Source: Mycosarcoma maydis (Eukaryota > Basidiomycota > Ustilaginomycetes > Ustilaginales). From it: 64,000 nt of DNA. The stretch is from the NCBI RefSeq assembly GCF_000328475.2, contig NC_026496.1, positions 496,001-560,000 of the forward strand, read 5' to 3'. The notes under the pieces are model-generated. The model was not told the origin of the DNA, did no database searches, and saw nothing but the letters and a program-made list of their open reading frames with translations. The position numbers and the translations under genes were made by a program. This document shows, one piece after another, positions 1,835 to 60,791 of the stretch (its first letter is position 1; each line of letters opens with the position of its first letter).

Positions 1835-2842
1835 TGAGCTAAGGTGCCGAGCCGGGTACGGAGAATGCTCTCGCTTTTGGGGTGATCAAGTAGGCAGGAG
1901 CCGATTCGAGATCGATGCGTCTGTCGAGCTTTTCTTCCGAAAACAAGCGAGAAGAGCGACGATGATGAGGACAATAATCAGATGGACAGTCTGAAGGATC
2001 TTTTGTCGTTGGTGGTCGTGTGATGGTTGACCATCGTGCATGTGTGAAAAGTCGAGTCCAACGACTTCTCACGTCAATCGTGAATCGTTGAATCAATCGT
2101 GAATCGTGAATCGTGAATCGTGAATCGTGAATCGTGAATCGTGAATCGTGAATTCACTATGCAACCTATTCGTGATTCAGATTTGAATGAATTTATTGAG
2201 TGTCCTTCTGCCTGTTTCTCAAATCACCGACTCACCAACTCGATTCCGTTTCGCGTTGCGCTGTGTTTTACCGCGTTAAACGTTGAGCGGCTTTCAAAAT
2301 CTTTTTCCAAGTCAGTTCTTCTTGTCCCAACCCGATCTTGTGTCGCGTCGCCGATCAAGTAGACCAACACGCAAAGACATCGTCAATCGTCAAGCACGAA
2401 TTGTGAATGTTGGCGATTCGGGAAACGGAAAGCGGAAAGCGGGTAAAGGTTGAATCGTCAATCACGAATGTTTCGCAAAGCAAACGAAAACTTTTTGAAA
2501 TATTTATTGGTGGGTTGGATCTTTTCAGAGAAAAAGACGAAAGCTTTCGTGTTGATTCGGTGGTGATTCACGATTGATCCGCATCACCCACGACGCGCAA
2601 GTCACGAGTGGCACATCGCCATCATATCTCTCTTGTTGCTAGTACGACCGAGCTGCTTGTGGCGTGCACCAGCAGCAACATCTTGGCACTCTCGTCTCTT
2701 GCACGCGTCGCACCGCGTTGCTGCGCATTCGGCACACGATTGGTTCGTCGCGCTCGGAATCGGCCAAGGCCAACGAATCCCTAGTCAAGGTACACTGCTC
2801 TACTCGGACACGATCGACGAAAAGCTCGCCAAGATCCAAAGC
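1835..2842. other. Divergent intergenic region, 1.0 kb
   Basis: This is the shared upstream region of the cochaperone (-) and the pseudouridine synthase (+). It holds the heptamer array at 2099-2154 and further scattered copies of the same word near 2390-2475. I see no convincing coding frame and no RNA gene. Confidence 0.6.
2099..2154 (+). repeat. (GTGAATC)n heptamer array, about 8 copies
   Basis: Seven perfect tandem copies of the 7-bp unit GTGAATC are followed by one GTGAATT. Single and paired copies of the unit and its reverse complement GATTCAC occur in nearly every intergenic space of the window. This is the longest perfect array seen. Confidence 0.95.
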
Positions 2843-4690
2843 ATGACGCAAAGGCTTGAGCAGCAAGTTGGTGCTGCGGAGGCAATGTCCAAAGCCACGG
2901 CTGCACCTGACACGCACACGCACACGCACACGCACACGCACACGCACACAAACGCCCTGAAACGAGTGCTCGAGCCTGAGCCGGAAACTGCTCCTCCCAC
3001 AACCGCCGCTTGCTCCACCGGCAACAACGGCGAACCAGCCAAAGAAGCATCCACATCCAAACGAGCACGCTTCGACAACGCCATCAACAAGGACGGAAAG
3101 AACAAGTGGGAGCGTCGAGATCGACGTGGCACCGGTCGAGCCCAAGATAACGAGTCACCGTCCACCTGCGAAGCGTCTGCGTCAACGGATCGTCTACCGA
3201 AACGCAAGGTCGCCGTCAAGTTTGGCTACTGCGGAATCGGATATTCCGGGCTGCAGATCAACCCGGGCGTCAAGACAATCGAGGGCGACATCTTCGATGC
3301 GTTCTGCACTGCCGGTGCCGTCTCGTCCGACAATGCAGTCAACCCAAACAAGGTGGGACTGCAACGGGCCGCTCGTACAGACCGCGGTGTGCATGCGGCG
3401 GGCAACCTGCTCAGCCTGAAACTCATTCTGCAGCCGCAAGGCTTGAAACCCGGCGAAACGTTGGTCGACAAGGTCAACGAGCTGCTCCCGCCGTTTATCC
3501 GGATCTGGGGCGTGACTCGCGTGCAGAACGGATTCAACGCTAGGCAGAGCTGCGATAGCAGAATGTACGAGTATCTGCTACCGACCTACGTGTTCATCCC
3601 GCCCAAGCCGGGGTCTACGATGCACGACATGTTGGTGCGCATCCGTCAACAGGAGCTCGCTAGACTGAGCGAGTCGGAAGCGCACGTCTCAACCACATGC
3701 TTGGACGAAATCATCGACCATCCCTTTTGGAAATCACACGGCACAACGTCCGAGTTCAGTGTCGACATGGCCGCTAAGAAGCAGTACCGGCTGACGCCCG
3801 CACACCTCGCCAAGATCCGCTCGATCTTCAACCGGTTCCTCGGTTCGCACAACTTCTACAACTTTACTGTCGGCAAGGAGTTCCGCGATCGGTCGTGCCA
3901 AAGGTTCATGAAGAAACTCACGATTTCCGAGCCCAAGATGATCCAGGGCGTCGAGTGGCTGAGCATCAAGTTCCACGGTCAGAGTTTCATGCTGCACCAG
4001 ATTCGCAAGATGATCGGCTTGCTGGTCTTGATCGGTCGAACGGGAGCGGCCGAGCGGTTGGTGGACGAGTGTTTCGGCCCCGCTCGCGTCCATATTCCCA
4101 AAGCACCCGGACTGGGACTGTTGCTGGAAATGCCCATCTTCGACGCATACAACACGCGCATCCGCAACAACAACGACAAAATCACCAAGCTCATCAAGAA
4201 GAAAACCCGGGCGGTCAACACACACCCCGAAGACGCCTCGCAAACAGGTAATGCTGCTTGCACGTTGTCAGACGAACTGCGCGACGCTATCACCTACAAC
4301 GACCACACATCCCAAATGCAACACTTCAAGCAGCAGTGGATCTACGACCGAATCATCGCCACCGAACAGGAAACAAACGAGTTCGGCAAATGGCTCAACT
4401 ACCTCGACGTCTTCCAAGGCCCCGACTTCGAATTTCTCAACCCCAGAGGCGTCATCCCCAGCCAAGCCATCGTCAAGGTCGGAGAGTTTCACCGTCATCA
4501 CTCGATCAAACGTCGTCCTGATTCCATGCTACACACGCCGCCCATTCCCGACACCGAGAATCCATCGCAATCCCACAACCACAACCACAACCACAACGAC
4601 GACGACGACGACAACCACAACGACAACGACGACGAGGACGCAGAGGCGTACGCTAAGAAAGGCGCCGAACTGGACGAGTATGAGGGTTGA
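2843..4690 (+). CDS. PUS1: tRNA pseudouridine synthase, Pus1 (TruA) family
   Basis: Converts uridine to pseudouridine in tRNA, and in yeast also in U2 snRNA. It acts mainly in the nucleus (family knowledge). The frame stays open upstream to 2633, but the only ATG in that stretch is at 2843, giving 615 residues. The catalytic aspartate lies in ARTDRGVHA (D180 counted from this ATG). Other family blocks are the RMYEYLLPTY segment, HNFYNFTVGK and FMLHQIRKMIGL. A His-Thr dipeptide run near the N-terminus comes from an (ACACGC)n microsatellite. The C-terminal tail is rich in His, Asn and Asp (HNHNHN, DDDDD) and is probably disordered. An unseen upstream exon with an earlier ATG cannot be excluded. 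Pus2 is the nearest alternative name. Confidence 0.92.
   Translation: MTQRLEQQVGAAEAMSKATAAPDTHTHTHTHTHTHTNALKRVLEPEPETAPPTTAACSTGNNGEPAKEASTSKRARFDNAINKDGKNKWERRDRRGTGRAQDNESPSTCEASASTDRLPKRKVAVKFGYCGIGYSGLQINPGVKTIEGDIFDAFCTAGAVSSDNAVNPNKVGLQRAARTDRGVHAAGNLLSLKLILQPQGLKPGETLVDKVNELLPPFIRIWGVTRVQNGFNARQSCDSRMYEYLLPTYVFIPPKPGSTMHDMLVRIRQQELARLSESEAHVSTTCLDEIIDHPFWKSHGTTSEFSVDMAAKKQYRLTPAHLAKIRSIFNRFLGSHNFYNFTVGKEFRDRSCQRFMKKLTISEPKMIQGVEWLSIKFHGQSFMLHQIRKMIGLLVLIGRTGAAERLVDECFGPARVHIPKAPGLGLLLEMPIFDAYNTRIRNNNDKITKLIKKKTRAVNTHPEDASQTGNAACTLSDELRDAITYNDHTSQMQHFKQQWIYDRIIATEQETNEFGKWLNYLDVFQGPDFEFLNPRGVIPSQAIVKVGEFHRHHSIKRRPDSMLHTPPIPDTENPSQSHNHNHNHNDDDDDNHNDNDDEDAEAYAKKGAELDEYEG
2910..2951 (+). 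repeat. Coding (ACACGC)n microsatellite
   Basis: A run of the ACACGC hexanucleotide lies inside the pseudouridine synthase frame and encodes alternating His-Thr. Length changes in multiples of 6 would keep the frame. Confidence 0.9.
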
Positions 4691-9410: not shown

Positions 9411-9412
<2 letters not shown>

Positions 9413-9608: not shown

Positions 9609-9635
9609 GAATCGTGAATCGTGAATCGTGAATCG
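9609..9635 (+). repeat. (GAATCGT)n heptamer array
   Basis: Nearly four tandem copies of the 7-bp unit also seen at 2099-2154, in the same orientation. Confidence 0.92.
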
Positions 9636-13947: not shown

Positions 13948-16539
13948 TTCGAGTCAGCATTTGCCGACATGCTCGTCAGTAGCTCAGGCACTGGTTCCGT
14001 CAACGCCCAAGGCTCGAACCAAGCGGCTGTTATGCCCTCGGCTCAGCCATTGGCGTTGAATATTGACACTGGCCCACCTTGGAGCGCCTTATCGCAGCAC
14101 TCTCAGCCGTCGTTTTACAAGTGCCGCATTGGCCCGATGAATTCAAACCGAGTATGTCGTCATGGTAAAGCACCAAGCAGGATGAGGAAGCATGACAGTT
14201 CCGAGTGGTGTGACTATCAGCCTAATTTTCATTTCAGCAGACCGTCGGGGCGAGTGAGGCGCAGATCGGGAGCTGGTGCCAACACGGTAGATTCACGATT
14301 GTGCGTTGATGTTCTACGGCGAGGTGCCTACATGAACTTGATTCAGTTGCGTCTTGCTCACCACTCGGATCGCCAAGTGTTGTGCTGCATCTACTCGGCG
14401 GTCGCATTCAGAATACAGAGCATGCTTTGCGCTTCGTAAGCGCTCTTGCTAGGGGTGAAAGGAGTGGAACAAGCCAAGGCTGTTTCAGTAGCCACATTCG
14501 ATTAGACAACGTTTGGGACCTTGAAAGGGTCTGAAACAGCGATTAATGTGGGAATCTTACAACCACCTTATGCAGCCCATCATGAGTCGACTCGTGACTT
14601 TACTGATTCACGATTCGTGATTGGACGGAGGACGATCGACACACACGCACACTCTCTCTCTCTCTCTCTTGCTGTCTTGATGTTCAGAACCTTGGCGGAA
14701 ATTTATGATGGGAAAAATGTGAATCAAAATCACGAATGGCAAGCCTAATTTTGACTGGCTCATCAACTTTGATCGAGATCCTCCACACAACGCTATTTTG
14801 GTCAACCAAAGTGAACGATCACGGATGTTTTTCGTGATTCACGATTGCTAGCTGATTCTGTGCTTCTGTGGTTGTCTGGCCGGGCAAAATGTGAATTTGA
14901 TCTGCGAGTCACAGAGTGCACCTCGTGTCTTTCTCTCACTGCTCGGTGTAACTGCATGGTCGGAGTTTCATTCTTCTGGAAAACCGAGCGAGGCCATCAC
15001 AACAAATCAAAACACCGACCGAAAACCACAAGAAAAACAGTCAATAACGGGATGTGTGTCATACCCTCTTTCGCTTGATCAGTCATGAATTGTGTCGCTT
15101 ATCACTGCTATCACACAGAGGTAAACAAAGGCGCTGAGAGAACGCATGGTGTTGATCATCAACTCAAGCGACCAAATCGAGCGAAAGAGAGGAGCGGCAG
15201 AGTGACAGCACATCACTCGACAACGCCCTGACGCCCAAGCATAGAAATACGACAACCACAAACGACGAAGCATACCTAGCGCGGCCAGCAGAGCAAATTG
15301 AATTTTGACTGCTGCCAGCTGTCAAACAAGGGAGGCGCGATCAAACTGGATGCGGCACATTTCGACAAGGTCTATGTGCTACTCACGACCAAGTTAGTCA
15401 CTTACGTGCTTGTGCTATACTCGGCGACTGTCCTGTTCTGAACTCGTCCACGGTCGAGTTGCTCTCGAAGATCCCTAGTGGCTTTCAAGGTCCGCAGACT
15501 TGTCTTGCTGTCCGACTTTTCGCTCGTTGCTATTCCATGAACGTTGATCACGCTGCATACAGAACATCAGCACGCGGAAATTAGTCTTGGTGATAGCGAC
15601 ATGAAAGCAAGCGCTGTTCGGCTGACAATCGGCGTCCTGCGTCGGTGACACCGCAAGCATCGTTCGTCGCCCGAGACTGTGCCCTGTTTTGGGATCTAAT
15701 GACATGACAATCACAAATGAATCATACACTGCGACATGAGACGTTTGATTTAGTCGCCATGATCGATAATTGCCAATAGCAACACTACACCTGAAGCGTT
15801 TCTCACCAAGGACTAGTCTGAGTCTCAAGCTTGAGCTTAAGCATTTCAATCAGCCATAAGCGATGTCTGACCTGGCCGCACCCTCAATAAGTACCCCCAT
15901 TGTTCGTTCCCCATCCTCCTTAATCTCCCTATTTCCTTTGCTTCCCTTGCGCTCCCGGTGTGGCTGGTCCGTTTCGATCCAAGCGTTGTGTTGTTGGTGG
16001 CGTACCAAAGGTTTCAGTCTCCGACGTTGTTCGATCCGACTTATCGGTCACCTCTCTGCTTCGGTCGTACCTACAGTGTTGCGCTTGACCTTGGTCTCGC
16101 ACGTCGAATCAAAACAGCAAGGCAGACGGCGAAAGCACTATCCCCCGATTGACGCTGAGCTGGTATCCAACAGCTCGGCCTCTGCAAACTGTTACTTGCT
16201 CCTTCGTAACTGTCCTAGAGACGTACATTGTTTCACATAGACAACTGAGCGCTGGCGCTAATCTGCAGCAGGTCTGCAGTGGATTGTCGGAGATTTGTCT
16301 ATCGCAGCGCGGTTGTGCTCTCCGTGATATAAGAGGTCAGAAACAATCGTCGACTCTCTCCGATACCGGGTGCGCACTCTGCACATCTTGTTTCAACTTG
16401 ACCGGTCTAAAGTTCCTGCCATTTGCATCCGTCAACCTCGATCTTTCAACTCCGTTCTCCACCTTGGTACCGCGGTTTGACAACGCCGTTCACCACCATT
16501 GACAGCCAGCAACGCTGAGCAAGCGACCTTGCAAGTACA
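13948..16539. other. Intergenic region, 2.6 kb
   Basis: No gene is supportable here. It contains a CA/CT run at about 14641-14669 and scattered heptamer words (14290, 14605, 14820, 14840). The last 400 bp before 16540 are probably the promoter of the secreted DUF1996 gene. Confidence 0.55.
14641..14669. repeat. (CA)n/(CT)n microsatellite
   Basis: A short CA run passes directly into a CT run in an intergenic region. Confidence 0.85.
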
Positions 16540-25877: not shown

Positions 25878-26173
25878 CCAGACCAACAACCCAACTATTC
25901 ACGATTTAAATATACTATAATATCAACAAAGATTCTAGTATTAATAATTAATCACCAATAACGTTTACTGGTGACCCCCTTTTTGAATCACTCGCCGACT
26001 TGCCGAAGGCTGAACCGACGGCATCCAATTCCAGCCGAAATCTGAGCAGAATAAGAATCACGAATCGTGAATCACAGAATGGAAAAGAAAAAAGCGCTGT
26101 CCAGTTGCACTGATGGATCGTACACTGGTCTCATGCCGAAGCGTTATGCATCATGTCCGCTGCGCTATGGCCG

Positions 26174-30863: not shown

Positions 30864-31833
30864 CGTGCGTCTGCACGCCGAAAAAGCAAGCGACTGTCTG
30901 TGTAGAGGAGAGCGCACGCAACAGGACGGGACGCGAAGCTGCGAATACAAACAATGGCGGTAGTCGGTAGTTGTCACAGTGGAAGCGAGAAGAGTCGAAT
31001 TCGTGAGTAGGTCACCTTAACCCAGATGAAATGAGGTAACTTATGCGGTAACTTAGCACAATCACAAATCGTGAATTCTCCTGTCTCAACCAGCCGCGCT
31101 ATTTTTTTAAAAACTTTATTTATTGATAACTTAGTCGTGAATGTGAATTACTGATAAGTTAGCATTCGTGATTCACGTTGCACGGCCACATCGCAATCTG
31201 TGAGTCACAGTCACGAGTCTCGGCAACACCACGCGCGGCATCACATTGGACCGCCGGCAGCTACAATCGTGAATTTACGAGTTTGCCACTCCACATTTCT
31301 GTAGACGCTCGCTTCTTCTGTACACAGCCCCCCTTTTTTAAACATGTTTTTATGTTTTCTATCAATCAAGAATCACGAATCGGAATGCATCCACGCATAA
31401 GCGTCGTGGACTTCTGTGCTTTTCTGTGCTTCAAATTTACCTCGTCAAGCGAATTCGCTACCCTTACAGTACACTTTTTTTTAGTCACGAGTCGTGAGTT
31501 GCTTCGAGCCTGTGGTCATGCAGACGACATCTGGTCGTCCATGGATGGCTCTTGCCAACAAAGCACTAACTTAACCTCTCTATCTCTTGCCGAACGCATG
31601 ACTCGTCAGAGCTACACCCACCAACTCGTGACTGTGGCTTCCGTGGCTGTCTTGGATCCTACCTCGTCACAGCTTTGTTTTGCCGTCGACAACGCAACAG
31701 CCTGTGGTCTGGGCCTAGACGCGCGAGTCCATGTGATGCTCGTCCTTGCTTTTCCACTCTCACGATGGAAATGCCGCGCTCCATGCTGTGCCAACATAAT
31801 GCAATTGTCTTTCTGAATCGTGTGGTCACGTGA
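30864..31833. other. Intergenic region, 1.0 kb
   Basis: Upstream of the amine oxidase gene (-) and of the tRNA gene (+). It contains T-rich runs (31099-31130, 31329-31340, 31477-31484) and heptamer words (31060, 31135-31180, 31265, 31370). No protein gene is supported. Confidence 0.55.
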
Positions 31834-33144: not shown

Positions 33145-33155
33145 GGTTAGAGCCC
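33145..33155 (+). other. Degenerate primer-binding site of element B
   Basis: GGTTAGAGCCC, equal to the site of element A with one T missing. The loss also removes the ATG that starts gag in element A. Confidence 0.75.
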
Positions 33156-33156
33156 A

Positions 33157-35492: not shown

Positions 35493-35757
35493 ACTCCATG
35501 ACGGAAACATCTGCCTTTCACAACCTTCTCTTCGCCCTCGCTGAACGCGTGCGAAAACTAGGCAGATCGATACAACAACAGAAAGCCTGTTGGCCTCAGC
35601 TTTCGACCTGATGGGTTTGGATCATCCAAAGAAGGTCCGATCAAGGTTCAAGGACATGCAAAAGGACTGGAAATCCAACTGACACAGTGGTATCCACAAA
35701 CCTCACCATGCATACTTCCTGATTCTCCCTCCACTGGAGGATAACGAGAACGAATAC

Positions 35758-36132
35758 ATGATGTATTCAGGGAACAAAACCTCACGCGTCGCCAAAAAAC
35801 GAGCTGTGAAAGTTCCCAAATCACGAGCATCACGTAGGTTTCCCAGGACCATGGAGCAGTCAAGTAGTCAACGAAAGCTCACCGAACGAAGCTTCAACGA
35901 GGGCCCACCTAGAGGAAAGATGCGCTGGAAAGAGCCGCAGCGCACCTCAAATGCCCCAGACACTTACACATCGATCCGTAAGAGGACACGGCGCACACAC
36001 CTTCCAAACTTGGACGGAAAGCTTTACGCCACACACATCAAGACAGAGAGCAACATGGCGCGATCCCCGCCGAGTGGGAGCGTCAGTGTCTCTGCAATTC
36101 ATGATTGGGGCACTCAAACACCATTCGAGTAG
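35758..36132 (+). CDS. Basic ORF between pol and 3' LTR (element B copy)
   Basis: A 124-codon ATG frame, rich in Lys, Arg, Ser and Pro (RVAKKRAVKVPKSRASRRF, then PPRGKMRWKEP). It lies in the long untranslated 3' region of the retrotransposon. The same frame, missing one A near its start, persists in element A at 38497-38832. It resembles nothing I recognise. It may be an accessory ORF of the element, or a chance frame in a conserved non-coding region. Confidence 0.35.
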   Translation: MMYSGNKTSRVAKKRAVKVPKSRASRRFPRTMEQSSSQRKLTERSFNEGPPRGKMRWKEPQRTSNAPDTYTSIRKRTRRTHLPNLDGKLYATHIKTESNMARSPPSGSVSVSAIHDWGTQTPFE

Positions 36133-36135
36133 GAG

Positions 36136-36714
36136 TGTTAGAATATCTGCGATTGGCGTTTAGTCTGATCGCCCACAATCATGCAGCCCTTGCAGTTACC
36201 CAAACGGTACACACGAGTGACCGGATGGGAACGAGTAAGCTCGCGGAATGTCCGCAACCCTCTCAGTCACCGGACGGGTACGAGTAGGTGTCTCAGAACG
36301 CCGGAGTTTTACCCGGTTCATAACATAGCGCTGGTAGCGAGAAGCCCAGGGTAAATTCACACAAGTCGCTGGACGACTGTGGGAATATGCCGTTGGCTAC
36401 AGACTCACGACTCGCACCAAGTGATAGAACCTGAAAGAGAACAGACTCACGCATCTGGCCAGTTGTGGCCACAGCTAGTCAGTTGTATGAGCAGCTGACG
36501 TATAGGGGGAGAAGCTCATGTAGGATACTCCAGTCAACTCATGTACATAAATACAGAGGGAACGCTCACACTTTGTAGTTTGTCCCTCGTCCAATACACG
36601 CTATCCAAATACATTCCAAACCATTCTCGACCCTACTCAGTCCCAACTCGCCTCTCTAAAGAAAGGGAGACTTCAATCATATAGCGCTCGCTAAACGTGA
36701 CCAATCACGAAACA
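36136..36714 (+). repeat. 3' LTR of element B
   Basis: Starts TGTTAGAATATC after a mutated polypurine tract (GAGTAGGAG) and is close in sequence to the LTRs of element A. It lacks their 77-bp GC-rich tandem array and carries an extra 7 bp (ACGACTC) near 36405. The right end, placed at AAACA, is approximate because the last 20 bp differ from element A. Confidence 0.78.
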
Positions 36715-36799
36715 CAATTTCCCTTACAAAGAAGCTGCAATAGTGGCGTAGTCACGAGTCGTGATTGAGCTGTATTCCGGGACCGGTTGCTTGATGGCG

Positions 36800-36832
36800 G
36801 TTGGTTCCAAGGACGACTTTTTCCTTCTTTTT
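36800..36832 (-). repeat. Single end of the GTCGTCCT hairpin repeat
   Basis: On the minus strand it reads AAAAAGTCGTCCTTGGAACC, the same end as the repeats at 37358 and 47311, without a partner end. Confidence 0.6.
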
Positions 36833-37338
36833 CATTCGTGATTTGTTGCAAAATCACGAACAAAAGATGGAAGAATAACGATGTTGACCCATTTCATTAA
36901 GTTAATCACAAATCTCTCGCGCAAGCCAGCAAAATCACAAATCACAGAATATTGCAACTTTCTCTAAACAGGGTTGTCGTCGAATTGCACAATTATTTTG
37001 AAAAACGGAGTATCAAAAAAGTCATGAGTTATGAGTGAGGGTGTAGCCCCGTGTTCATGATTTATGTACATCAGCTGAGTGACCAGCGATTGCATCTGCA
37101 TCACGCATGTTGTGAGGCACTCGTGACTGTATGACGTGACCCTCTCAGCGCTTTATGATATGCAATTTTGGCTAACAGGTTATACCTGTTAATCGTCTTT
37201 GTCCGGTCACTCGTGTGGTCCGGAAACGTGTATTAGCTAATTTTTGGGGATTGGGCTAAGGCCAATCACGAATCACAGACGATTCTAAAGAGGCTTAAAG
37301 GTCTTTACTGGAATCGTAAATTACGAATCGTGGATCAC

Positions 37339-37560
37339 ATCGTGAAGAAAGGAAAAAGTCGTCCTAGGAACCACACCGGCAACCACCCAAGGTGGGCCAT
37401 AGGTGGTTTCTCACCGCAATCACCCCTCACAGGTAGCTTCTAGTGTGGCTCCGAGGACGACCATCCTCTCAATAGCTCGTCAGCCAGTAGCATAGGTGAT
37501 CACACACTGTGACACAAGACACAAGACCTGGTATTGGAACAAAACGGCCATAAATGTATG
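37339..37560 (+). repeat. ~200-bp repeat with hairpin (left copy)
   Basis: Contains a 104-bp segment (37358-37461) with inverted ends, GTCGTCCTAGGAACCACA against TGTGGCTCCGAGGACGAC (16 of 18 paired). It is followed by about 95 bp shared with the copy at 47131-47334, which lies in the opposite orientation. It is MITE-like in build, but no target duplication was identified. Confidence 0.75.
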
Positions 37561-37771
37561 CATTTTGATTTGTGATTCGTAGCCCAGCAATTACGAATCA
37601 CGAGTGTGAATCATAAATCACGAATCATGAACATGTTTACCCTAAACTTTTTGTATGCTTAGACAAAATCATTATTTTTACGTGGGACTGTGCTCGTGAC
37701 TGTGATAATCACAATCGTGAATCACGAATTGCGCGAGGTGTGGGTGAGATAAAGCCTACCTTGGAACGGTT

Positions 37772-37776
37772 GCTTT
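37772..37776. repeat. Target-site duplication GCTTT (left)
   Basis: GCTTT abuts the left LTR and is repeated exactly at 44326-44330. Five base pairs is the usual copia target duplication. Confidence 0.92.
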
Positions 37777-38502
37777 TGTTCAATATTCGCGGTGAATCCT
37801 TAGCGGGCGCTGGATGATCGAAGTCTCCCTTTCCTTAGAGAGGCGAGTTGGGACTGAGTAGGGTCGAGAATGGTTTGGGATGTATTTGGATAGTGTGAAT
37901 TGGACAAGGGACTAACTACAAAGTGTGAGCGTTCCCTCTGTATTTATGTACATGAGTCGACTGGAGTATCCTACATGAGCTTCTCCCTATACGTCAGCTC
38001 CTCATACAACTGACTAGCTGTGGCCACAACTGGCCAGATGCATGAGTCTGTTCTCCCTCAGGTTCTTCCACTTGGTACGAGTCTGTAGCCAACGGCGTGT
38101 TCCCACAGTCGTCCAGCGACTTGTGTGAATCTACTCTGGGCTTCTCGCTACCAGCGCTATGTTGTGAAGCGGGGAAACTCTGGCGAGTTACTATACTTGC
38201 GCGCGTACCGCGGTCGTACTGCGGGTGCATTGAGCGCGTGTCGCGCGCGTATGGCGCGCGTACTGCGAGTGTATCGCACGCGTACCGCGGACGTACTGCG
38301 GGTGCATTGAGCGCGTGTCGCGCGCGTATGGCGCGCGTACTGCGAGTGTATCGCACGCGTACCGCGGACGTACCGCTGGTGTATTGAGTGCGCGTCACCT
38401 ACTCGTTCCCGTCCGGTCACTCGTGTATACCGGTTAGTGTTACTGCAAGGGTTGCATGATTGTGGGCGATCAGACTAAACGCCAATCGTAGATATTCTAA
38501 CA
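37777..38502 (-). repeat. 3' LTR of element A (726 bp)
   Basis: In element sense it starts TGTTAGAATATC and ends TATTGAACA, with TGTT/AACA inverted ends. It contains the 77-bp tandem array at 38202-38395. Confidence 0.95.
38202..38395. repeat. 77-bp GC-rich tandem array in LTR
   Basis: Two full units (38202-38278, 38279-38355) and a partial third, built from CGCG-rich words such as CGCGTACCGCGG. The other LTR has one full unit and a partial one (44076-44219). Confidence 0.9.
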
Positions 38503-38832
38503 CTCCCACTCGAATGGTGTTTGAGTGCCCAAATCATGAATCGCAGAGACACTGACGCTCCCACTCGGTGGGGATCGCGCCATGTTGCTCTCTGTCTTGA
38601 TGTGTGCGGCGTAAAACTTTCCGTCCAAGTTTGGAAGGTGTGTGCGCCGTGTCCTCTTACGGATCGAAGTGTAAGTGTCTGGGGCATTTGAGGTGCGCTG
38701 CGGCTCTTTCCAGCGAATCTTTCCTCTAGGTGGGCCCTCGTTGAAGCTTCGTTCGGTGAGCTTTCGTTGACTACTTGACTGCTCCATGGTCCTGGGAAAC
38801 CTACGTGATGCTCGTGATTTGGGAACTTTCAC
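38497..38832 (-). CDS. Basic ORF between pol and 3' LTR (element A copy)
   Basis: About 110 codons matching the 124-codon frame of element B (35758-36132). Relative to that copy, one A is missing in the AAAAAA run just upstream of this open stretch, so the ATG lies out of frame here. The frame reads through the polypurine tract into the LTR and stops at the TAG of TGTTAG. It is rich in Arg and Lys. Function unknown. Confidence 0.3.
   Translation of the reverse strand: MKVPKSRASRRFPRTMEQSSSQRKLTERSFNEGPPRGKIRWKEPQRTSNAPDTYTSIRKRTRRTHLPNLDGKFYAAHIKTESNMARSPPSGSVSVSAIHDLGTQTPFEWEC
38503..38510 (-). other. Polypurine tract of element A
   Basis: In element sense AGTGGGAG abuts the 3' LTR, where plus-strand synthesis would be primed. 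A second GAGTGGGAG lies about 45 bp further upstream. Confidence 0.75.
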
Positions 38833-39142
38833 AGCTCGTTTTTGGCGACGCGTGAGGTTTTGTTCCCTGAATACATCATGTATTCGTTCTCGTTATCCTC
38901 CAGTGGAGGGAGAATCAGGAAGTGTGCATGGTGACTTTTGTGGATACCACGTGTGTCAGTTGGGTTTCCAGTCCTTTTGCAAGTCCTTGAACCTTGATGG
39001 GACCTTCTTTGGATGATCCAAACCCATCAGGTCGAAAGCTGCGGCCAACAGGCTTTCTGTTGTATCGATCTGCCTAGTTTTCGCACGCGTTCAGCGAGGG
39101 CGAATTGAAGGTTGTGAAAGGCAGATGTTTCCGTCATGGAGT

Positions 39143-40996
39143 TTATTGAGAGGATTTCTCGTTGGACCTGTCTTTCAGGCCAATCTCCTTGCAGAACTTT
39201 TCGATCTGCTGACGGTTGAGCGTCTTTGTGAGCGCATCCGCTCGTTGCTCCCCTGACTCGGTATATTCGATGTTGATAACACCGACGGCGGCCAATTCGC
39301 GTATCTTGTGGTAGATGATGTCGATGTGCTTTGTAGCCTTGTGAAGTACCGCGGTTCTTGCATAGCTGGATCGCTGCCTGGTTGTCAATGTAGTGAGGTA
39401 TTGCTTCTTTTCCTCGAAGTTGAAGGGAATGAAACAGGCTTCTGATCCACAACGCTTCTTTCGCGCCTTCCGCGGCCGCGATATATTCAGCCATTTGTGT
39501 TGAGGTTGCGATGATAGGTTGTTGTTTGGATAGCCAGCTGATTGGGGAACCGTTCATTAGGAAGATCATTCCTGTGACGCTTTTGCGAGGGGTGTTTGTT
39601 GTGTCGACCGGTATGACGATCTTGTTTTTGGTGGTTAACTCTTGATTGGGAGAGTAAATCGCCTTCTGGTTTGCAAAATCAGCGTCCGTGAAGACCTCTA
39701 GGGTCAGATTCCTCCCACTCGCTAGTTTGGGGAACCGGAGGCGATAGTCCTGCGTAGTCTTGAGGTAACGGAGAAGGTGTTTTCCAGCAGAGAGTGCGTG
39801 GATCGTCGGTTGAGCTAAATAAGCGGCTGAGAGCTTGTACCGCGTATGCCACATCTGGTCGAGTGTAGCAAGCCAGGTAGTTGACAGAGCCTACGTAGCT
39901 GTTGGAAGAGTTCCTTGTCCGCGACGGAGCAGTGCTCGGGGTTTTCGGGATGAGCAATGCCAGTGGCGGGTAATGGTGTGAAGGCGGGTTTCGCTTCGAG
40001 CATCTGGAAACGATCGAGGATCTTTTGGATGTAACCCAGGTTGGCCTAGGGAAGTGGAATTGGTAGATTTCGACACGCTGACGTTGAGCACAGAAGATAA
40101 ATCGCCCTGATCTGTGATTTTAAAATGAGTTTGGATTTCGGTGTGGAGCCAGGCGAGTTCCGATGCTTTTGGTGACGCAGCGACGAGGTCATCGACGTAT
40201 AATGCAAGTAAGATCTGTCGTCCGGCCTTCTTGGAATGAAAGAGGCAGTGGTCTTCTTGCAGTTTCGTGAATCCGAGCTGTTCGAGTACCTTCGTAGCGA
40301 AGAGGTACCATTCGCGGCCGGCTTGCTTGAGACCGTAGATGGCTTTGTTCAGGAAGCAGACCTTCCCGGGTACTTCGTGACCGGGAGGCATCGTCATGTA
40401 TACTTCTGCCGATAGGCGTCCGTTTAAGAAAGCAGTGACTGCGTCCCAATGAACAATCTTCCAGTCGAATGCCGCGGCGAGGCCGATGAGGATGCGTAAC
40501 GTGGTGGCCTTTACTACTGGAGAGAAGGTTTCGTCGTAGTCGTATCCGTATCGCTGTGTGAAGCCTCGTGCGACTAGTCGTGCCTTGTATTTGTCGAGAG
40601 ATCCATCGGCCTTTTTCTCTGATGGCGAATACCCATTTGCAGCTGACCACATTGGTGGCTCTTGTTTTGTGGGTGGTCTACGAGGGTCCAAGTCTTGTTG
40701 GATTCATGACTTTTGAGTTCTGCCTGGATGGCACCTTCCCATAGGGGCCAGTCGGCGCGCATGCGAGCTTGTTTCAGGGTGGCCGGTGGCTTTGAAAGAT
40801 TTGTTGTCACGTGCCGGGCGTAATCGCCAAGTCTGTGGGGCCTTGCCCTAAGGTTGTAACGTGACTCGTCACCCGTGCTCTCGTTTGCGTTGTTTTTGTC
40901 TCCCCACTGTTCTTGTATCTCCCACTGTTGTTGTATCTCCTCCCACTGTTTGGTGAGGAGTCGGGAGAAGAGCGAGAGAGTCATCGGACTCGTCAT
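39143..40996 (-). pseudogene. Reverse transcriptase and RNase H of element A, frameshifted
   Basis: Reverse transcriptase is recognised by KARLVARGFTQ, DAVTAFLNG, YGLKQAGREWY and the catalytic YVDD (about 40190-40200). RNase H shows VFTDADFAN, a TQMAEYIAAAEGAKEALW block and YIDNQAAIQLCK. The pieces fall in different frames, with breaks near 40900, 40650, 40610, 40050, 39905, 39790 and 39370. Several look like single-base gains, for example one C and one A near 40650 and 40610. The last piece ends GLKDRSNEKSSQ at 39143. Confidence 0.88.
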
Positions 40997-42981
40997 CTAT
41001 TTCTTGATGCCGCGATGGGGAGTCCCGGCCTCGGATGTCTTTGAGGTCGCCTTCTTGAGGGAAATAGGTTGATCGGTTCATGGAATTCGTCATCTGTGGA
41101 TTCTGCTTGAAGAACACGGTGTGAGTTGGACTCTCCAGTGAATCACCGCTCTCGGTAGTATCTGCTAATTGCGCTTCCTCTATTGAGGCGAGATGAGGGT
41201 AGTTGGTGGCTCCCACTGGTTGACTGGATTCTTCGGACGATGGGGAAGTCCTTGGGATGTTCAGCGATGAGCGGACCGGGGCCGGTAATCCTGGCCTCGG
41301 GAGATTGTTTCCCGTGGTTCCAGTTTCATCATCTGAAAGTTCCTCGAAGGGGGCTTCAGATTTTCGCCGAATCCGCTCGTTCTCCCGGAAGATGACGTGC
41401 CGACTTGTGAAGATCTGGCCGGTTTCTACGTCCATGAGTCTGTATATGTAAGGGTGGTTATTGCTAACATGTCCCAGGTGTATGCATTCAACAGACTTGG
41501 GATCCAGGGATTTGCGGAGTTCGTCAGGTACGCGTGCCCATGCTTTACACCCAAAGACCCGGAGGCCTTGAAGATCCTGGCGTTTGCCATGCATTCCTTC
41601 ATGAGGTGTCTTGGAAGAATCCGTGCTGGTGGCCGACATGTTTCGAAGCTTCAGCCCGTGACTGAAGGCGAATGGCCAGTACTGGGTAGTCAAGTTTGCT
41701 TCTTCTAGCATGCACCGAATATAATCCTTGACAATCTGGTTAGTGCGCTCCACGAGACCGTTGGATTGTGGTGTGAATCTTGGAGTGACCTCTCGTCCTA
41801 TACCTCGGTGATTGAGGTAGTTCGAGAACTCTCTGCTCAAGAATTCACCACCATTGTCCGTTCGGACTCGGCAGATACGCTTTCCCAGTTGCGTTTGGGT
41901 CCATCGATCGATGGTTCGGAATGCTTGGAAGGCTGATGACTTATAGATCAGTGCCGCCCCGAAGCAGTATCTCGTGCAATCGTCCACCATGAGTAGGTAA
42001 TATTTCTCTTTGGATAAGCCTTCCGGCAGAGGCCCCGCAAGATCCATGTGAACTAGCTCGAGTGGTCGAGTTGTCTTGGGTCCACGGCTCTTGATCGGTG
42101 CGTGCCTATGCTTCGACTTGATGCAGGTTTCGCAGTTGTTCCCGACAGAGGGGCCCGACATAGCCTTTAGGTTCATGCCGTCGGTAAGCGATGCTGTCTT
42201 GAGCGTGGCCTGCATGTGGAGGTGGCCTAGCCGTTGGTGCCAGAGTTTGGCTTGGTCCAAGGCTTTCTCGCTAGTAACGAGTTTGGCTACTGCGGTGGTA
42301 GTTCCTTCCACTAGCAGGTAGTTCACATCTCCACGGCGTTTGCCCCTCAGGGCCAGTCGACCCTTTTTGTCGAAGATTTCGACCGTTTTCTTGGTGAAGT
42401 TGATGCTTCCACCGAGGCGTTGCACCTGTGGTGTAGAGAAGAGATTGTTCCCAAGTCCTGGAACGTGGAGGACATCTTGAAGTGTAATCGACTTCCGCGA
42501 TCCCTTCGAGTTACTCATCACCAGTCTGACGTTGCCCATGCCAGCAACCGGAACTCCTCTGTTGTCAGCGACGAATACCTCCTGGACAGGAGATGGTCCG
42601 TACGTCGAGAAGAGGGTCTTGTCGCCGGTCATGTGTCGGCTTGCGCCAGAGTCAATGATCCAGGTATCATTTTGGGGAGCGACGTTGTCATCGGGTGTGG
42701 ACACGTGGAGACACAGATTCATCTCGTCGGAGTCGACTTGTGCCAGGTTTCCCGTCACTTTCTTGGTTTTCTTCTGCTTTTGCTTCTCGGTGCGATCCTT
42801 GTGTTTGGGACCTCCTTCCATGAAGCAGTCTTCGAGGTTATGGTTATCCCTCTTGCAGTTAGTGCAGAATTTGTCTTTGCCCTTTTTGACAGGCTGCGAC
42901 TGGGCTTGCATGGCCCGAGCTGGGTATTGGCGCCGGAAAGACTTTTGCTCAGGCTTCTTCAGCCATAACCGTGCTGACGGC
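40869..42981 (-). CDS. Gag C-terminus, protease and integrase of element A
   Basis: About 700 codons without a stop. It starts with the zinc knuckle CTNCKRDNHNLEDC, a nucleic-acid binder. The protease motif IIDSGASRHMTG follows, then the GAG-pre-integrase/zinc region (LWHQRLGHLHM, then CETCIKSKH). The integrase catalytic triad follows: Asp in HMDLAGPL, Asp in RTDNGGEFL and Glu in SNGLVERTNQ. The frame has no start of its own and overlaps the end of the gag frame. It would need a +1 shift at the gag stop to be made. The frame stops at 40869, where the next pol segment lies in another frame. Confidence 0.9.
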
Positions 42982-43644
42982 AATTTCGTAGTCTTCCAGG
43001 GCCTTCTTGTTGGCTGTTTCGTCGGAATCTCCTTCCTTCTGGAAGAAGAGACGAGTGTTGAAGTAGAAGATCTTTCGCCAGACATCGTGCTGGGGACCGA
43101 GGCCACGCAGAAAGGTTCTCAGTTTGCGAAGTCCGCTAACCGGAGCATCCACGTGGTCAAGTTTCCTGCAGATAGTCTCCAACTTGTAGGAGTAGACGTT
43201 GATCTTGTCATCTCCTTGGTAGAGGTTCGCCAACTGCGCTTCGAGTGAAGCAATCTGCTGAGCAACGTTCTGCGCGTAGTTCTCGCGAAGTTTCTCCCAG
43301 ACTTTTCGAGCAGTAGTTGACGTATCGACCAGGGCTTGTTGGGCGGGTCCAAGGGAGTTGAGGAGTATGCTGCGTGCTTCCACGTCAGCTCGATAGTACT
43401 CGGCGATATCCTTAGTAGGGAATTTGTTGCCGAGCTTCACTTCCTTAAGGTCTCCCTCACCCAGATGTTCCTCGGGTTTGACGAGTCGTCCCTCGATGAT
43501 GAACCATAAGTTCGCGTTTTTGCACGAAAGGACATTTTGCATCGAGGTCGCCCATTCGAAGTAGTCCTCCGAGGACATCAGCCGTTTGGGTAGTCCAACC
43601 CTCATAGAGGAGAAGGCAAGGTCTTGATCATTGATTGGGCTCAT
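42949..43644 (-). CDS. Gag N-terminal part of element A
   Basis: 231 residues starting at an ATG that lies inside the primer-binding site (43644-43642). It is the capsid-like region of copia Gag (MSSEDYFEWATSMQNVL, then YSYKLETICRKL). It ends with MAEEA and a TGA at 42951-42949. Across this stop, element B reads GCC GAG with no T, so the stop depends on a single inserted base or else is a frameshift signal. Confidence 0.88.
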   Translation of the reverse strand: MSPINDQDLAFSSMRVGLPKRLMSSEDYFEWATSMQNVLSCKNANLWFIIEGRLVKPEEHLGEGDLKEVKLGNKFPTKDIAEYYRADVEARSILLNSLGPAQQALVDTSTTARKVWEKLRENYAQNVAQQIASLEAQLANLYQGDDKINVYSYKLETICRKLDHVDAPVSGLRKLRTFLRGLGPQHDVWRKIFYFNTRLFFQKEGDSDETANKKALEDYEIAVSTVMAEEA

Positions 43645-43648
43645 AACC
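43637..43648 (-). other. Primer-binding site of element A
   Basis: In element sense GGTTATGAGCCC lies directly after the 5' LTR. Drosophila copia has a near-identical site that pairs with the anticodon region of initiator tRNA-Met, so a half-tRNA primer is likely. Confidence 0.85.
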
Positions 43649-44325
43649 TATTCAATATTCGCGGTGAATCCTTAGCGGCGCGCATGGATGATCGAAGTCT
43701 CCCTTTCCTTAGAGAGGCGAGTTGGGACTGAGTAGGGTCGAGAATGGTTTGGGATGTATTTGGATAGTGTGAATTGGACAAGGGACTAACTACAAAGTGT
43801 GAGCGTTCCCTCTGTATTTATGTACATGAGTCGACTGGAGTATCCTACATGAGCTTCTCCCTATACGTCAGCTCCTCATACAACTGACTAGCTGTGGCCA
43901 CAACTGGCCAGATGCATGAGTCTGTTCTCCCTCAGGTTCTTCCACTTGGTACGAGTCTGTAGCCAACGGCGTGTTCCCACAGTCGTCCAGCGACTTGTGT
44001 GAATCTACTCTGGGCTTCTCGCTACCAGCGCTATGTTGTGAAGCGGGGAAACTCTGGCGAGTTACTATACTTGCGCGCGTACCGCGGTCGTACTGCGGGT
44101 GCATTGAGCGCGTGTCGCGCGCGTATGGCGCGCGTACTGCGAGTGTATCGCACGCGTACCGCGGACGTACTGCGGGTGCATTGAGCGCGTGTCGCGCGCG
44201 TATGGCGCGCGTACTGCGACACCTACTCGTTCCCGTCCGGTCACTCGTGTATACCGGTTAGGTTACTGCAAGGGTTGCATGATTGTGGGCGATCAGACTA
44301 AACGCCAATCGTAGATATTCTAACA
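43649..44325 (-). repeat. 5' LTR of element A (677 bp)
   Basis: Nearly identical to the LTR at 37777-38502. It ends GAATA rather than GAACA next to the primer-binding site and has about 50 bp less of the 77-bp array. Confidence 0.95.
43812..43822 (-). promoter_or_regulatory. TATA-like element in the 5' LTR
   Basis: In element sense CATAAATACAG lies in the second half of the LTR and is conserved in both LTRs of element A and the 3' LTR of element B. It is a plausible core promoter for the element, by position only. Confidence 0.4.
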
Positions 44326-44330
44326 GCTTT
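44326..44330. repeat. Target-site duplication GCTTT (right)
   Basis: Exact copy of the 5 bp at 37772-37776. Confidence 0.92.
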
Positions 44331-46516
44331 AGCCTAAATTCATGACTGAGACTGCAGATACCTGCGCGCAAGTCATCACCCGTTAATCATGAATGTTTTG
44401 TTTTACATGTAGTGAAGACGATGCTCGTTGCGAAGGATAGGAGACTGGTCAGTACTCTCACAATATCTTTTTTTTTTTTTTTTTTTGCTCTTTTGCTTTT
44501 ATTTTTCCTCATCTGGATCATGAATGATCTGGCACCTGGCTCGAACGAACAGTCAAGAGTATGTCTTTGGTAGCTCTAAGGATGAATTTTTCCGATTGAA
44601 CGATTGAATCACGAATCACGAATGTGAGTCACGAATCGTGAATTTCATAAAGATTCACGATTCACGATTCCGTAATTTAACGCGCCTCTTCGGGACATCA
44701 ACTTTTTGACCATCACGCATCACGCATATATTCGTGATTAATTGCCAAGATTCGTGATTCGTGATTTGTGATCCATGATGCCCAGTCGTGAGTTACTCAC
44801 GACTCATAATTATCTATCATCGAAGGTGACATTTCAAAATCTTGACCAGAATCGTGACTGCTACACGGCACAAATCATGTATCAAGAATATAAACACCAT
44901 TCACGATTCGTGATTCGTGATTCACGATTTTGCGTTACGCGCGTATCGCGTACAAACAAGTCGTGAGTCATGAGTCGTGAGTTCGTTGAAAGTCACGAGT
45001 CTGGTCATCTCACCATGACTCACGACTCACGACTAGCTACATAAATGTAAAAGTTTCCGGGACTTCTTGTGTCTTCGAGGTTCAGAAAGAGAAACACAAG
45101 CTTGCGTAGCAACGCATACAGAGCGGCGAAAAGGTTGCAATCCGCCGAGGCCATGGCTCAGTGGCTCATAGGGCAGCTGAAAAAGAAGCAGTTTTCGTGA
45201 CTTGCCGCTGCTTTCCTTTCGCCAATGTGAATCAGAATCACGAATCACGAATCACGAATCACGAATAACTCACTACTCGTGGCTGATGGCCGAATTTTCC
45301 GGCACTCATGACTCACGACTGGCCACAAGATAGAAAGGGTTCACACCAAACTTCTGACACCAGCTTGTACAATCACGAATCATGGATGCCTGTGCTCTGT
45401 ATACAGGGCACCTTCCTCGCTGCTTCAAGCAAGCTACGGTCGTGGGGACTGCGTAAGCACAACAAGCCGAACTGCATGAAGCCAGGTGCTTATCGTCCCA
45501 TTCATGATCCATGATTAGTCTTCTCTGCCCCTCGGGCAAGCTGTCTTCTTTCATTCACGAGATTACCGCTCGCATCGTTGCAGAGAGGCTCGCCAAACAT
45601 TCACGACTACGATTATGAATTACGAATAACAGAACGGACGACACTCACGACTGTGCACTCACGACTCATGACTCGTGGCTATGGACGTAAAGGGCACCTA
45701 CAGCGCAGTGCACGTCCACCACATGGCCGAGGCCCTCAATATGAATCATGAATCGAGCTTCTTTGCTCAAGCGCATTGTGCAATGGACCTCTTTGTTCAC
45801 GAGCGGCAGCCAAGCGCGCCTCAAGCTCGAAGGATCGTACCTAGGCCCTACGTGCGAAGCCAATCGTGAATCACGAATGTAGGACTACCTCAGGGAAAAT
45901 TCAGCTTGAAGCTCATGTGTTTAAAACATACACGTGATACAGTCGAGATATGGTAGAACCATGAACATGAGTGTGGGATGGGTTGATGACAGAGACCTGC
46001 TTTTTGACACTAGAATCGCAAACGTGCGCTACAGACACGAGAGTCGAGCTAATCCTCCAGATCGTAGGAAGCTACCTGTGAATCGAGCTTCGATCCGGCA
46101 AAGTCAAGGTACCTGATCTTCTCCCCAAAAAGAGCCCCAGGGAGCTTGGGCGACATTCGTGATTGAGTTGCTAGGCTCCCGTCTAACTCGGGCCCATGAG
46201 CTTAAGATCCTCGGTGTGACAACGTGGAAACCAAACCAAAGAAGAAAGCAAGATGGTGTCAGTAGGCAGACTCGTCAGGTCAGGGCACGCCGAAGAAACA
46301 GCACCGAGTCGGAAGAGGAGATATAGAGCTTCGATCCGAATCACGAATGGCCTCAAGAGAGACTCGTCGCTGAGCTCTATTGGAGAGAATGCCGTATTCG
46401 GCTTCATCAGCCGGGCCGAGTCCAGCCAAGCTACCCGTGGCAGCTGGCAGTTGAGTTAACCCGAGTCTAGCATCTAAGAGCCGATCGATACCGTCGTCCC
46501 CATCCAGCAGGCAAGC
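44331..46516. other. Repeat-rich intergenic region, 2.2 kb
   Basis: Dense heptamer words, especially at 44606-45015, 45236-45266, 45590-45680 and 45860-45880, plus a poly-T tract at about 44467-44486. No coding frame is convincing: most are crossed by the words. Confidence 0.6.
44606..45015. repeat. Dense heptamer-word cluster with hairpins
   Basis: GAATCAC, GTGAATC, GAGTCGTGAGTC and GACTCACGAC words lie in both orientations. Some sit as close inverted pairs (for example around 44635-44665 and 44895-44930) and could form hairpins. A pure (GAATCAC)n run follows at 45236-45266. Confidence 0.8.
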
Positions 46517-47130: not shown

Positions 47131-47334
47131 TACATTGTTCTGCTCCAATACCAGGTCTTGTGTCTTGTGTGTGATCTCCTATGCGATTCGTGACTGGCCG
47201 ACGTGCTGTTGAGAGGATGGTCGTCCTCGGAGCCACCCTAGGGGCCACCTGCGAGGGGTGGTTGCTGCGAGAAGCCACCTAGGAACCACCCCGGGTGGCT
47301 CCTAGGACGACTTCTTCCTTTTTTCACGATATAA
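47131..47334 (-). repeat. ~200-bp repeat with hairpin (right copy)
   Basis: An inverted copy of 37339-37560. Its hairpin segment is 47220-47311, with ends GTCGTCCTCGGAGCCACC and GGTGGCTCCTAGGACGAC. It has 7 bp more than the left copy at the word CACGAATC (CGATTCGTG on the plus strand near 47184), and 8 bp less at another place. Confidence 0.75.
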
Positions 47335-52390: not shown

Positions 52391-52529
52391 CGAAATTCAC
52401 GATCCACGATTACAGAAATTAAAGATTACAACCCAAGTCCGATATTATTCACGATTTCACGATTCACAGATTCGTGATATTGGTTGTCTAGACCCTCCTT
52501 TTGGTACAGCCGGTTAAGCTTCAAGTACA

Positions 52530-52600
52530 GATCGCGAATCGTGAATCGTGAATCGCGAATATTATCGTGGAATCATCGATCGTGAATCACGAATTCGTGT
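52530..52600. repeat. Heptamer-word cluster
   Basis: Tandem CGAATCGTGAATCGTGAATC-type sequence with inverted GTGAATCACGAATTCGTG beside it. Confidence 0.8.
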
Positions 52601-53005
52601 TTGAATCTCACATTCGTGATGGACGATTGCGCTTCCTGCAGACCCTGGCCGGACCATCCGTTTGCGTCGATCGTCACCGTCCACCATCCACGGTATCGAG
52701 CCAGCGTTGCTGCTCCGCATCTGATCACACTGTCGCAACGCGCACCGAAACCGAATATCACTCTTGATCTTCACTCTTTCACGTCACCTTTTGGTGCGCT
52801 GCTATCACGTCTCCATTCTTTCGATTCGATTCAATCGTGAATTGGGCTCACTACCCTCATCTCGAGTTCGGAAAATCCCGCGATCCTCGTCCCCGCAATG
52901 TCGGCGCATGCTCTTGCACTTGCACTCTAAGTGACTTTCTCAACGCTCTCCCCCCAACTCTCACGAACACTGACCGCCATCGTCAAAGCACACTCATTCG
53001 CCGAC

Positions 53006-58117: not shown

Positions 58118-58554
58118 GGTCGTGCACCCAGCACGAATGATGGCCAGCCAAGATGGTGTTCAAAATCCACAAAGCGCCGTACGTAGCACAGAGGCATATG
58201 CTTTGCTTGCGTGTGTGTGTTGGCAAAATGTCCTGAACCGTGCGCTGTGTAACTCAGCCGAGACCAACACTCACTTGTGACTGACCCACCGTGAGTCATG
58301 AGTGGGGGGTCTCGAGAGAGAACGCTTTCGGCTGGCTGAATCGTGAATTATTCACGATTTTGCATCCCAATTTCAGTCACACAGGCGTGAGTTGTGGTGA
58401 GTCGTGAAGCGCCTGAGAGGCTGAGAGGCTGAGAGGCTGAGAATACGTGTCCGGATTTTTGAAAGCGCGTGTCGCGTTTGCGTCTCGCAGCTGAATTGGG
58501 CCCAGTTGGATGGAGCACAGCTGGACGGCGCGCAGCTGGATGGAGAGCATATGG
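58118..58554. other. Intergenic region with short tandem repeats
   Basis: Upstream of the bestrophin-like gene. It holds (CTGAGAGG)n at 58413-58444, four copies of an 8-bp unit, and a degenerate repeat of GCACAGCTGGATGGA type at about 58505-58550. Heptamer words occur at 58340-58360. No gene. Confidence 0.6.
58413..58444. repeat. (CTGAGAGG)n minisatellite
   Basis: Three perfect 8-bp copies and one ending in AAT. Confidence 0.88.
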
Positions 58555-60108: not shown

Positions 60109-60791
60109 TGTGCAGCTGCTGTGATGGTTGCCAATCTATGATGGAAGCAGGGTTCAACTCCACTCGCTGCTGACTCGGAGCAGGAAGCATCCTTACAAAA
60201 AATCACCCATCACCAACCAGCAGATTCCAACTACACCGATTTCCGGTTTCCGGTTTCCGGTTTCGCCATTCGCGACTTCCGATTTACAATCACGAACGTG
60301 GTACAGCATGACGCGCATGCAAAGCACACTCGTGATGGGTTAGAGAATGGACAGACCATTCACGCCTTTCGAGCCTACAGCAAGGCTGTTTGTGCTGCGT
60401 TGGAAGCTATTGGTAGTTGCAAAGTGAGCATCAGAGCGCGAGGTGAGAGTGTCAGTACAAGGACGAAACGGGAGAAAACAAACGACCGTGCGAGAGGTAT
60501 TCACGATTCGTGTTTGTTATTGTCGTGTTAACATTAAAAAGAGTATTCAATCACGAATCGTGAATCGTGAATTCGACAAAGCACGAAGCGTGAAGGGCGC
60601 GCACGGGCAACCGACCAGAACAAAGTCACGAGTGAAAGCCAGAAGAAAGCCAAAAGAAAGCCAAAAGAAAGCAGCACAAAAGAGACGGTGCGAGCGCTGT
60701 TGTGTAACGCCTTCGCTCCTTCCTTCGCGTCCTTTGCCATCGTATCAGATCGTGTCGTGTCGTATCGTACCGCTTCGCTTGGATCGTCAGC
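60109..60791. other. Divergent promoter region PRP4/pmt4
   Basis: 683 bp with a (TTTCCGG)n run at 60239-60263, heptamer words at 60548-60572 and an AGAAAGCCAAA repeat at about 60648-60678. No gene. Confidence 0.6.
60239..60263. repeat. (TTTCCGG)n short array
   Basis: Three tandem copies of a 7-bp unit unrelated to GTGAATC. Confidence 0.85.

Follow-up and report, generated by a model that had tools for sequence, protein, structure and literature searches.

In Mariner/Stowaway excision either element end may remain in the footprint, and Tc1/mariner donor elements are normally common. The ISL2 group of the bacterial IS5 family has ANT direct repeats (N, any base), and its ends are said to begin with G. 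According to excerpts of PMC4561436, an element-derived overhang of a few nucleotides is kept between the target-duplication copies when Mariner/Stowaway elements excise, and PIF/Harbinger excision is generally precise and leaves no footprint. CACTA elements make 3-bp target duplications and have ends starting with CAC, as stated in parts of PMC4423477. Here, we describe a 10-bp unit, NNN-[CACG or CGTG]-NNN, with an identical trimer (mostly ANT) on each side, in a stretch of 64,000 nt of the Mycosarcoma maydis genome (positions 496,001-560,000 of NC_026496.1; hereafter the window, within which site coordinates are counted). Each unit arises when 4 bp of constant sequence, CACG or its reverse complement, insert at a trimer and the trimer is duplicated, one copy on each side; the gain is 7 bp, and such insertions have occurred many times.

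Fixed inserts between duplicated trimers

We analyzed one genome (19,664,356 bp, 27 contigs), using the window and a 264-kb sample that adds twenty 10-kb regions of contig C1 to it (C numbers denote contigs of the assembly, and L numbers denote loci fetched from the genome); counts below are from this sample unless the window, the genome or a repeat family is named. A tetramer scan, in which each tetramer was scored for identical trimers on both sides, found copied trimers at 149 of the 755 CACG/CGTG tetramers in the window (about 21 expected) and at 430 of the 2709 in the sample (65 expected). The remaining enriched tetramers were shifted readings of the CACG unit, poly-A or the decay form CATG (51 of 1201 with copied trimers, 29 expected), and other insert lengths (1-10) and flank lengths gave simple repeats, shifted readings and weak hits, none of which was comparable to CACG with 3-bp flanks. 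When equal ANT flanks were required, 117 units were found in the window, compared with a mean of 0.67 and a maximum of 3 in 200 dinucleotide shuffles of the window.

A genome-wide count against controls, as proposed in the original prediction for this stretch, yielded 27,565 matches to ANTCACGANT, compared with 262 for the reversed pattern and 831 for the scrambled core ANTCGACANT. As judged by eye, the middle base was equal on both sides in about 93 of the first 100 ANTCACGANT matches listed and was shared in about 30 of the first 100 ANTCGACANT matches listed, which is close to chance. CACG and its reverse complement CGTG were equally frequent (13,811 forward and 13,754 reverse matches), in agreement with the claim of dispersal on both strands.

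The original prediction had started from a dispersed 7-bp word, GTGAATC/GTGAGTC. This word is indeed non-random (69 occurrences of GTGA(A/G)TC on both strands of the window; shuffle mean 24.5, standard deviation 4.9, maximum 38 in 200 shuffles), and the arrays quoted for it are present (2099-2154, 9609-9635, 45236-45266, 44606-45015 and 52530-52620). As a unit, however, the 7-mer is enriched but misplaced: only 38 of the 69 overlap a perfect unit, because the word is a slice of the 10-bp unit read off-register. Likewise, there are four subfamilies and not the two proposed, one for each base in the middle of the copied trimer (AAT, ATT, ACT, AGT). Within arrays the trimer is constant (AAT, ATT, ACT, AGT, also CAT and AAG) and CACG and CGTG alternate; the period of 7 in tandem runs was recovered in the window, where 50 core pairs lie at distance 7, compared with 6-12 at each distance of 4-6 or 8-12; distances 14 and 21 give additional peaks. 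Literature searches, with subscription papers outside their coverage, found no description of an NNN-CACG-NNN feature among the records listed, in line with the earlier statement that no element of this form was known; the '7 bp' in the portion of PMC7593156 consulted is a deletion. The sequence words themselves occur in 11 papers, at least two of which concern U. maydis, presumably as primers.

Full and empty alleles show that the units were inserted and did not form by mutation of sequence already present. Eight sites in two multicopy repeat families carry both, and the alleles differ by a 4-bp insert plus a 3-bp target duplication, 7 bp at each site. At two of the eight a second insertion followed the first, and one site received cores of both orientations. 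Seven copies of the repeat with site A were fetched; L074 is full and the other six are empty (one ACT), as are the window copies at 38072 and 43946 (the window alleles are listed in Table 1). The second repeat has 48 genome matches, from which 35 copies (32 fetched, L032 and two in the window) were aligned with a median pairwise identity of 0.87, and seven sites (s1-s6 and s8) show full beside empty alleles. At s1, TCT-CATG-TCT, with both trimer and core off type, occurs in one copy and 11 are empty; at s3, 12 copies are empty and two carry ATT-CGTG-ATT; at s4, one copy has ATT-CACG-ATT, three are empty and in 11 others ATT-CGTG-ATT, intact or decayed, lies within a longer insert. At s5, AAT-CGTG-AAT (L050, L067), AAG-CGTG-AAT (L052) and AAT-CGCG-ATT (L055) stand beside 16 empty copies, and at s6, one copy has AGT-CACG-AGT and 13 are empty, with GGT or GGA in place of AGT. 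At s8, 26 aligned copies share the same upstream sequence, and by eye 22 are empty, three full (the window copy, L058 and L071) and one irregular (L042); since the full alleles include ACT-CACG-ACT in L071 and ACT-CGTG-ACT-TGTG-ACT in L058, this target took inserts of both orientations.

At five of the seven sites, almost every copy that can be compared is empty, in support of gain by insertion and against loss. At s2 most rows are full (12, with three empty), and the change there may have run in either direction; its cores are mostly decayed (CTTG, CATG, CATA, TATG, TACG, AATG), with CACG in L055 and a doubled allele, AGT-CGTG-AGT-CATG-AGT, in L073. The alignment of the second repeat contains 44 distinct internal gap runs, including seven of 7 bp, three of 14 bp, five of 8 bp and nine of 1 bp, and these varied lengths indicate that other indels occur there too. 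No 7-bp CACG difference was found between copia-like copies that are about 99% identical, so that nothing here proves present activity.

Two side observations concern repeated sequence. In L051, L054, L062 and L065 the sequence upstream of s8 is different and CGTG units abut the repeat, as if the repeat started at the unit; in L054 it reads ATT-CGTG-ATT-CGTG-ACT-CACG-ACT. The retroelement-rich block of the window (32700-44330) contains a copia-like reverse transcriptase piece (40041-40616, minus strand), with about 99% identical copies on other contigs. The dense-repeat families are located close to other transposon copies.

Targets, arrays and decay

Insertion prefers ANT between G/C bases. 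The ANT trimer accounts for 305 of the 430 units, and the flanks of 199 single ANT units are weakly palindromic, with T depleted on the left (0.13) and A depleted on the right (0.10) directly outside the trimer; at the second base out, G and C are correspondingly scarce (0.14 each). Non-ANT units also occur, such as CAT-CACG-CAT-CACG-CAT and AAG-CACG-AAG-CGTG-AAG (window 44590-45040 and 60500-60620).

We found 240 ANT arrays, comprising 198 single units, 31 doubles and 11 longer arrays. The doubles comprise 17 in the same orientation and 14 mixed, as independent hits predict. About 6.6% of the intergenic ANT sites in the window carry a unit, and multi-unit arrays make up 17% of its arrays. Simple re-hitting does not account for these two figures and would also need either a degree of slippage or a bias towards units already present. 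Multi-unit arrays arise when existing units are hit again, and the longest uniform arrays require slippage as well. The proposal that the word spread by slippage accordingly holds for the long uniform arrays, but not for the rest. An extreme slippage array of about 32 head-to-tail GTGAATC units lies at C1:883785-884008, where there are many overlapping (GTGAATC)3 matches.

Decay of the core was counted among the top 25 tetramers between copied ANT trimers. The commonest one-step changes are both CpG transitions, CATG (29) and CACA/TGTG (25), compared with 305 perfect cores, followed by TACG/CGTA (15), CAAG/CTTG (13), CGCG (13), CGTC/GACG (12), CAGG/CCTG (7) and CACC/GGTG (5); core decay is thus mostly at CpG. 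Mixed mismatch repair of overhangs, which predicts CATG and CGCG, was considered and rejected as unnecessary, because CATG is about as frequent as CACA/TGTG.

A second product, CACAG/CTGTG, lies between copied ANT trimers (11 with the same and two with different trimers), with 1177 matches genome-wide against 56 for the reversed pattern; the middle base is shared in about 82 of the first 100 matches listed (by eye). It uses the same target trimers as CACG and sometimes adjoins CACG units, entering the same arrays. CACG with one base added at one end or the other is rare (0-3 cases of each form), which makes simple decay an unlikely source of CACAG. Weak enrichment was also seen for a 3-nt insert, CAC (35 with equal and 33 with different trimers, P = 0.0075). 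Small unexplained excesses of 5-nt inserts between copied ANT trimers were also seen (CGACC 6:0, CGCAG 5:1, CACTG 5:2); CACTC (14:2) was set aside as a simple repeat.

Units are nearly absent from coding sequence, as the original prediction had noted. The window has one ANT unit in 28,491 bp of long open reading frames (ORFs), 108 in 23,678 bp outside them and eight in the 11,631-bp retroelement-rich block, for an ORF set that was built mechanically with introns ignored (16 of 19 ORFs used, three nested ones omitted, and the ORF at 40869-43085 assigned to the retroelement block). A 7-bp frameshift explains this scarcity without any regulatory function.

Table 1. Units, arrays and alleles in the window, and transposon-like features at fetched loci
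Feature	Position	Strand	Basis
All 90 perfect ANT arrays, extent	2076..60633		array listing
8 units, AAT, all CGTG	2095..2153	+	array listing
3 units, AAT, all CGTG	9610..9633	+	array listing
Double, ATT, mixed (CACG then CGTG)	14606..14622		array listing
Double, AAT, mixed; directly followed by AAT-CACAG-AAT (26070-26080)	26056..26072		array listing
CACAG/CTGTG inserts between copied ANT trimers	26070-26080, 52462-52472, others		flank scan
Double, AGT, mixed orientation	31483..31499		array listing
Site A full, ACT-CACG-ACT	36403..36412		repeat comparison
Double, AAT, mixed orientation	37713..37729		array listing
Site A empty, single AGT	38072..38090	+	repeat comparison
Site A empty, single AGT	43946..43964	+	repeat comparison
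Dense cluster of 12 arrays (AAT, ATT, AGT, ACT)	44607..45034		array listing
ATT array in dense cluster, four cores (CACG CGTG CGTG CACG)	44899-44929		array listing
4 units, AAT, all CACG	45236..45266		array listing
Double, AAT, mixed orientation	45862..45878		array listing
s8 full allele, ATT-CGTG-ACT on +, one flank one base off, in 48-match repeat	47186..47195		alignment
Double, AAT, both CGTG	52537..52553	+	array listing
Single AAT-CACG-AAT	52585..52594		array listing
3 units, AAT (CACG CGTG CGTG)	60549..60572		array listing
PIF/Harbinger-like element, ends AGAGGTTTTGG, DDE_Tnp_4 ORF of 311 aa	L039 2008-3725 (C2)		
Rearranged PIF/Harbinger-like copy, 91% identical	L040 2754-4748, near C7 end		
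Tc1/mariner-like element, imperfect inverted ends starting CAGCGCGCG, flanking TA	L084 306-1935 (C19:184606-186235)		
Low-scoring DDE_Tnp_4 match, possibly a spliced, domesticated Harbinger-type gene	L041 2289-2672 (C20:144289-144672)	-	

Origin of the inserts

We consider that the 4-bp inserts were probably left behind at excision by a family of cut-and-paste DNA transposons, the putative donor, which would have had 5'-CACG...CGTG-3' ends and made 3-bp duplications, and assign this reading a probability of roughly 0.6. Insertion of the element would generate the 3-bp target duplication, at excision one strand would be cut 4 nt within the element, which would leave a 4-nt overhang on each broken end, and repair would retain a copy of one end, so that NNN-CACG-NNN and NNN-CGTG-NNN would result with equal frequency. 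The CACAG inserts may come from a variant or minor relative of the element, units inside genes would be lost because 7 bp shifts the frame, and the donor may by now have died out, be very scarce or have escaped recognition in this genome. The original prediction had judged the repeat too short to be a transposon. This is correct for the word, but transposition can leave a 4-bp insert flanked by a 3-bp duplication.

Several results weigh against such a donor. In the 264-kb sample, ANT-matched CACG...CGTG ends up to 6 kb apart numbered 341, compared with 379, 437 and 362 for three other orientations, and CAC...GTG ends 21-199 bp apart were flanked by the same trimer in 10 cases and by different trimers in 26 (all inserts, 19,647 to 55,181), with no excess in either search; this search for longer elements covered 264 kb of 19.66 Mb, and the remaining genome was not searched for them. 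It is odd that 240 ANT arrays occur in 264 kb without a single fossil copy, because dead non-autonomous copies should persist. The three DNA transposons with located ends (PIF/Harbinger, L082 and L084) all have non-CACG ends, and the donor search was confined to this genome. The scars are also nearly all exactly 4 nt, by contrast with rice, in which eight of 94 excisions were perfect and excision was usually messy (as given in sections of PMC4423477).

Genome searches returned 46 copia, three PIF/Harbinger and four Tc1/mariner-like matches. The PIF/Harbinger element on C2 was rejected as donor on its ends (Table 1) and its TTA/CTA flanks; of the four Tc1/mariner-like copies, all fetched, L082 and L084 have inverted ends, neither of them CACG, and were likewise rejected, and L081 and L083 could not be bounded. 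Plavaka and Transposase_21 searches gave no match in this genome and 14 control genomes were silent too; a KDZ search also gave no match with silent controls, and these family searches left out hAT, Mutator, piggyBac and pogo. Copied trimers flanked none of three occurrences of the possible two-ended footprint CACGCGTG and two of 62 occurrences of CACGTG. CAC...GTG inserts of 6-12 bp with ANT flanks (eight same, four different) are possibly two-ended footprints, too few for use.

The missing element and the uniformity of the scars compared with messy rice excision keep direct micro-insertion in play as a possible, though clearly less probable, origin. In such 'micro-transposition', an enzyme would make 3-nt staggered cuts at ANT and insert CACG, or more rarely CACAG, with no mobile element involved, amounting to about 27,500 insertions with a payload of 4-5 bp; a transposase-like or repair enzyme might serve, such as a transposase that has been domesticated or an end-processing enzyme that carries a template. 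This would suit the near-uniform 4-nt product, the lack of any long element or fossil in 264 kb and of CACG ends among the located transposons, and it fits the targeting and orientation statistics equally well. However, the minor CACAG and weak CAC products resemble terminal-sequence variants, which suits transposon ends, and we know of no enzyme that directly inserts such a 4-bp payload.

Replication slippage multiplying a 7-bp word, that is, a heptanucleotide microsatellite, would account for long uniform arrays, such as the eight units at 2095-2153 and the array on C1, but is very unlikely as the origin, because 198 of the 240 ANT arrays have one unit only, cores of both orientations stand beside a constant trimer within arrays, the trimer differs from array to array while CACG does not, and full and empty alleles exist. 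Slippage is thus disfavored as the source by the empty sites, and survives as secondary expansion.

A regulatory element or binding site under selection (bHLH, AP-1 or Gcn4-like) is similarly improbable. CACG and GA(G/C)TC resemble known binding-site cores, and the units are enriched in intergenic space, but the trimer-copy rule, the equal orientation, the decay within repeats and the roughly 27,500 copies are against it, and ORF avoidance is itself predicted by frameshifting insertion. We found nothing in support of the binding site suggested in the original prediction, given that any trimer can be copied on both sides and that empty alleles exist. Least credible of all is that local gene conversion or templated repair, without inserting anything, copied a trimer from one side of a CACG already present to the other, which would also yield identical trimers around CACG, but is contradicted at the sites seen by empty alleles without the whole 7 bp, and leaves the ANT preference and palindromic flanks unexplained.

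The scars total about 0.2 Mb (27,565 x 7 bp), or about 1% of the genome, and the 10-bp units are probably treated by repeat finders as noise or microsatellite. Each scar is an oriented record of one insertion; together they provide thousands of indel markers, and the past of an element that has vanished or stays hidden might be read from them. If the transposon reading is true, a genome with few recognisable DNA transposons may still record tens of thousands of events, with frameshifts and changes in promoter spacing between strains as predicted consequences. The copied-flank scan is applicable to any genome.

Comparison with known systems

The scars would resemble Mariner/Stowaway footprints, with a few nucleotides of either element end between the duplications, if CACG is such an end, and the equal frequency of CACG and CGTG is as this predicts. 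They differ from Tc1/mariner in that the duplication is 3 bp, mostly ANT, rather than 2 bp (TA), and in that no donor is seen for the CACG scars. PIF/Harbinger and Tourist elements share the 3-bp duplication, and members are present in this genome; however, their target is TAA/TTA (TWA) rather than ANT, their ends are not CACG, and footprint-like inserts are found here where precise excision would leave none. The ISL2 group is bacterial, whereas the scars described here are fungal. Heptanucleotide microsatellites share the period of 7 within arrays, but the units here are mostly single, of mixed orientation and not consistently head-to-tail, with a variable trimer and insertion alleles. CACTA elements (EnSpm, including the fungal Plavaka) have targets described as variable, whereas here these are mostly ANT; their ends, CACT(A/G), agree with the footprints CACG and CACAG in CAC, with G and not T as the fourth base of CACG, in a comparison of footprints and not of an intact end. 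The scars show the same 3-bp target duplication as CACTA elements.

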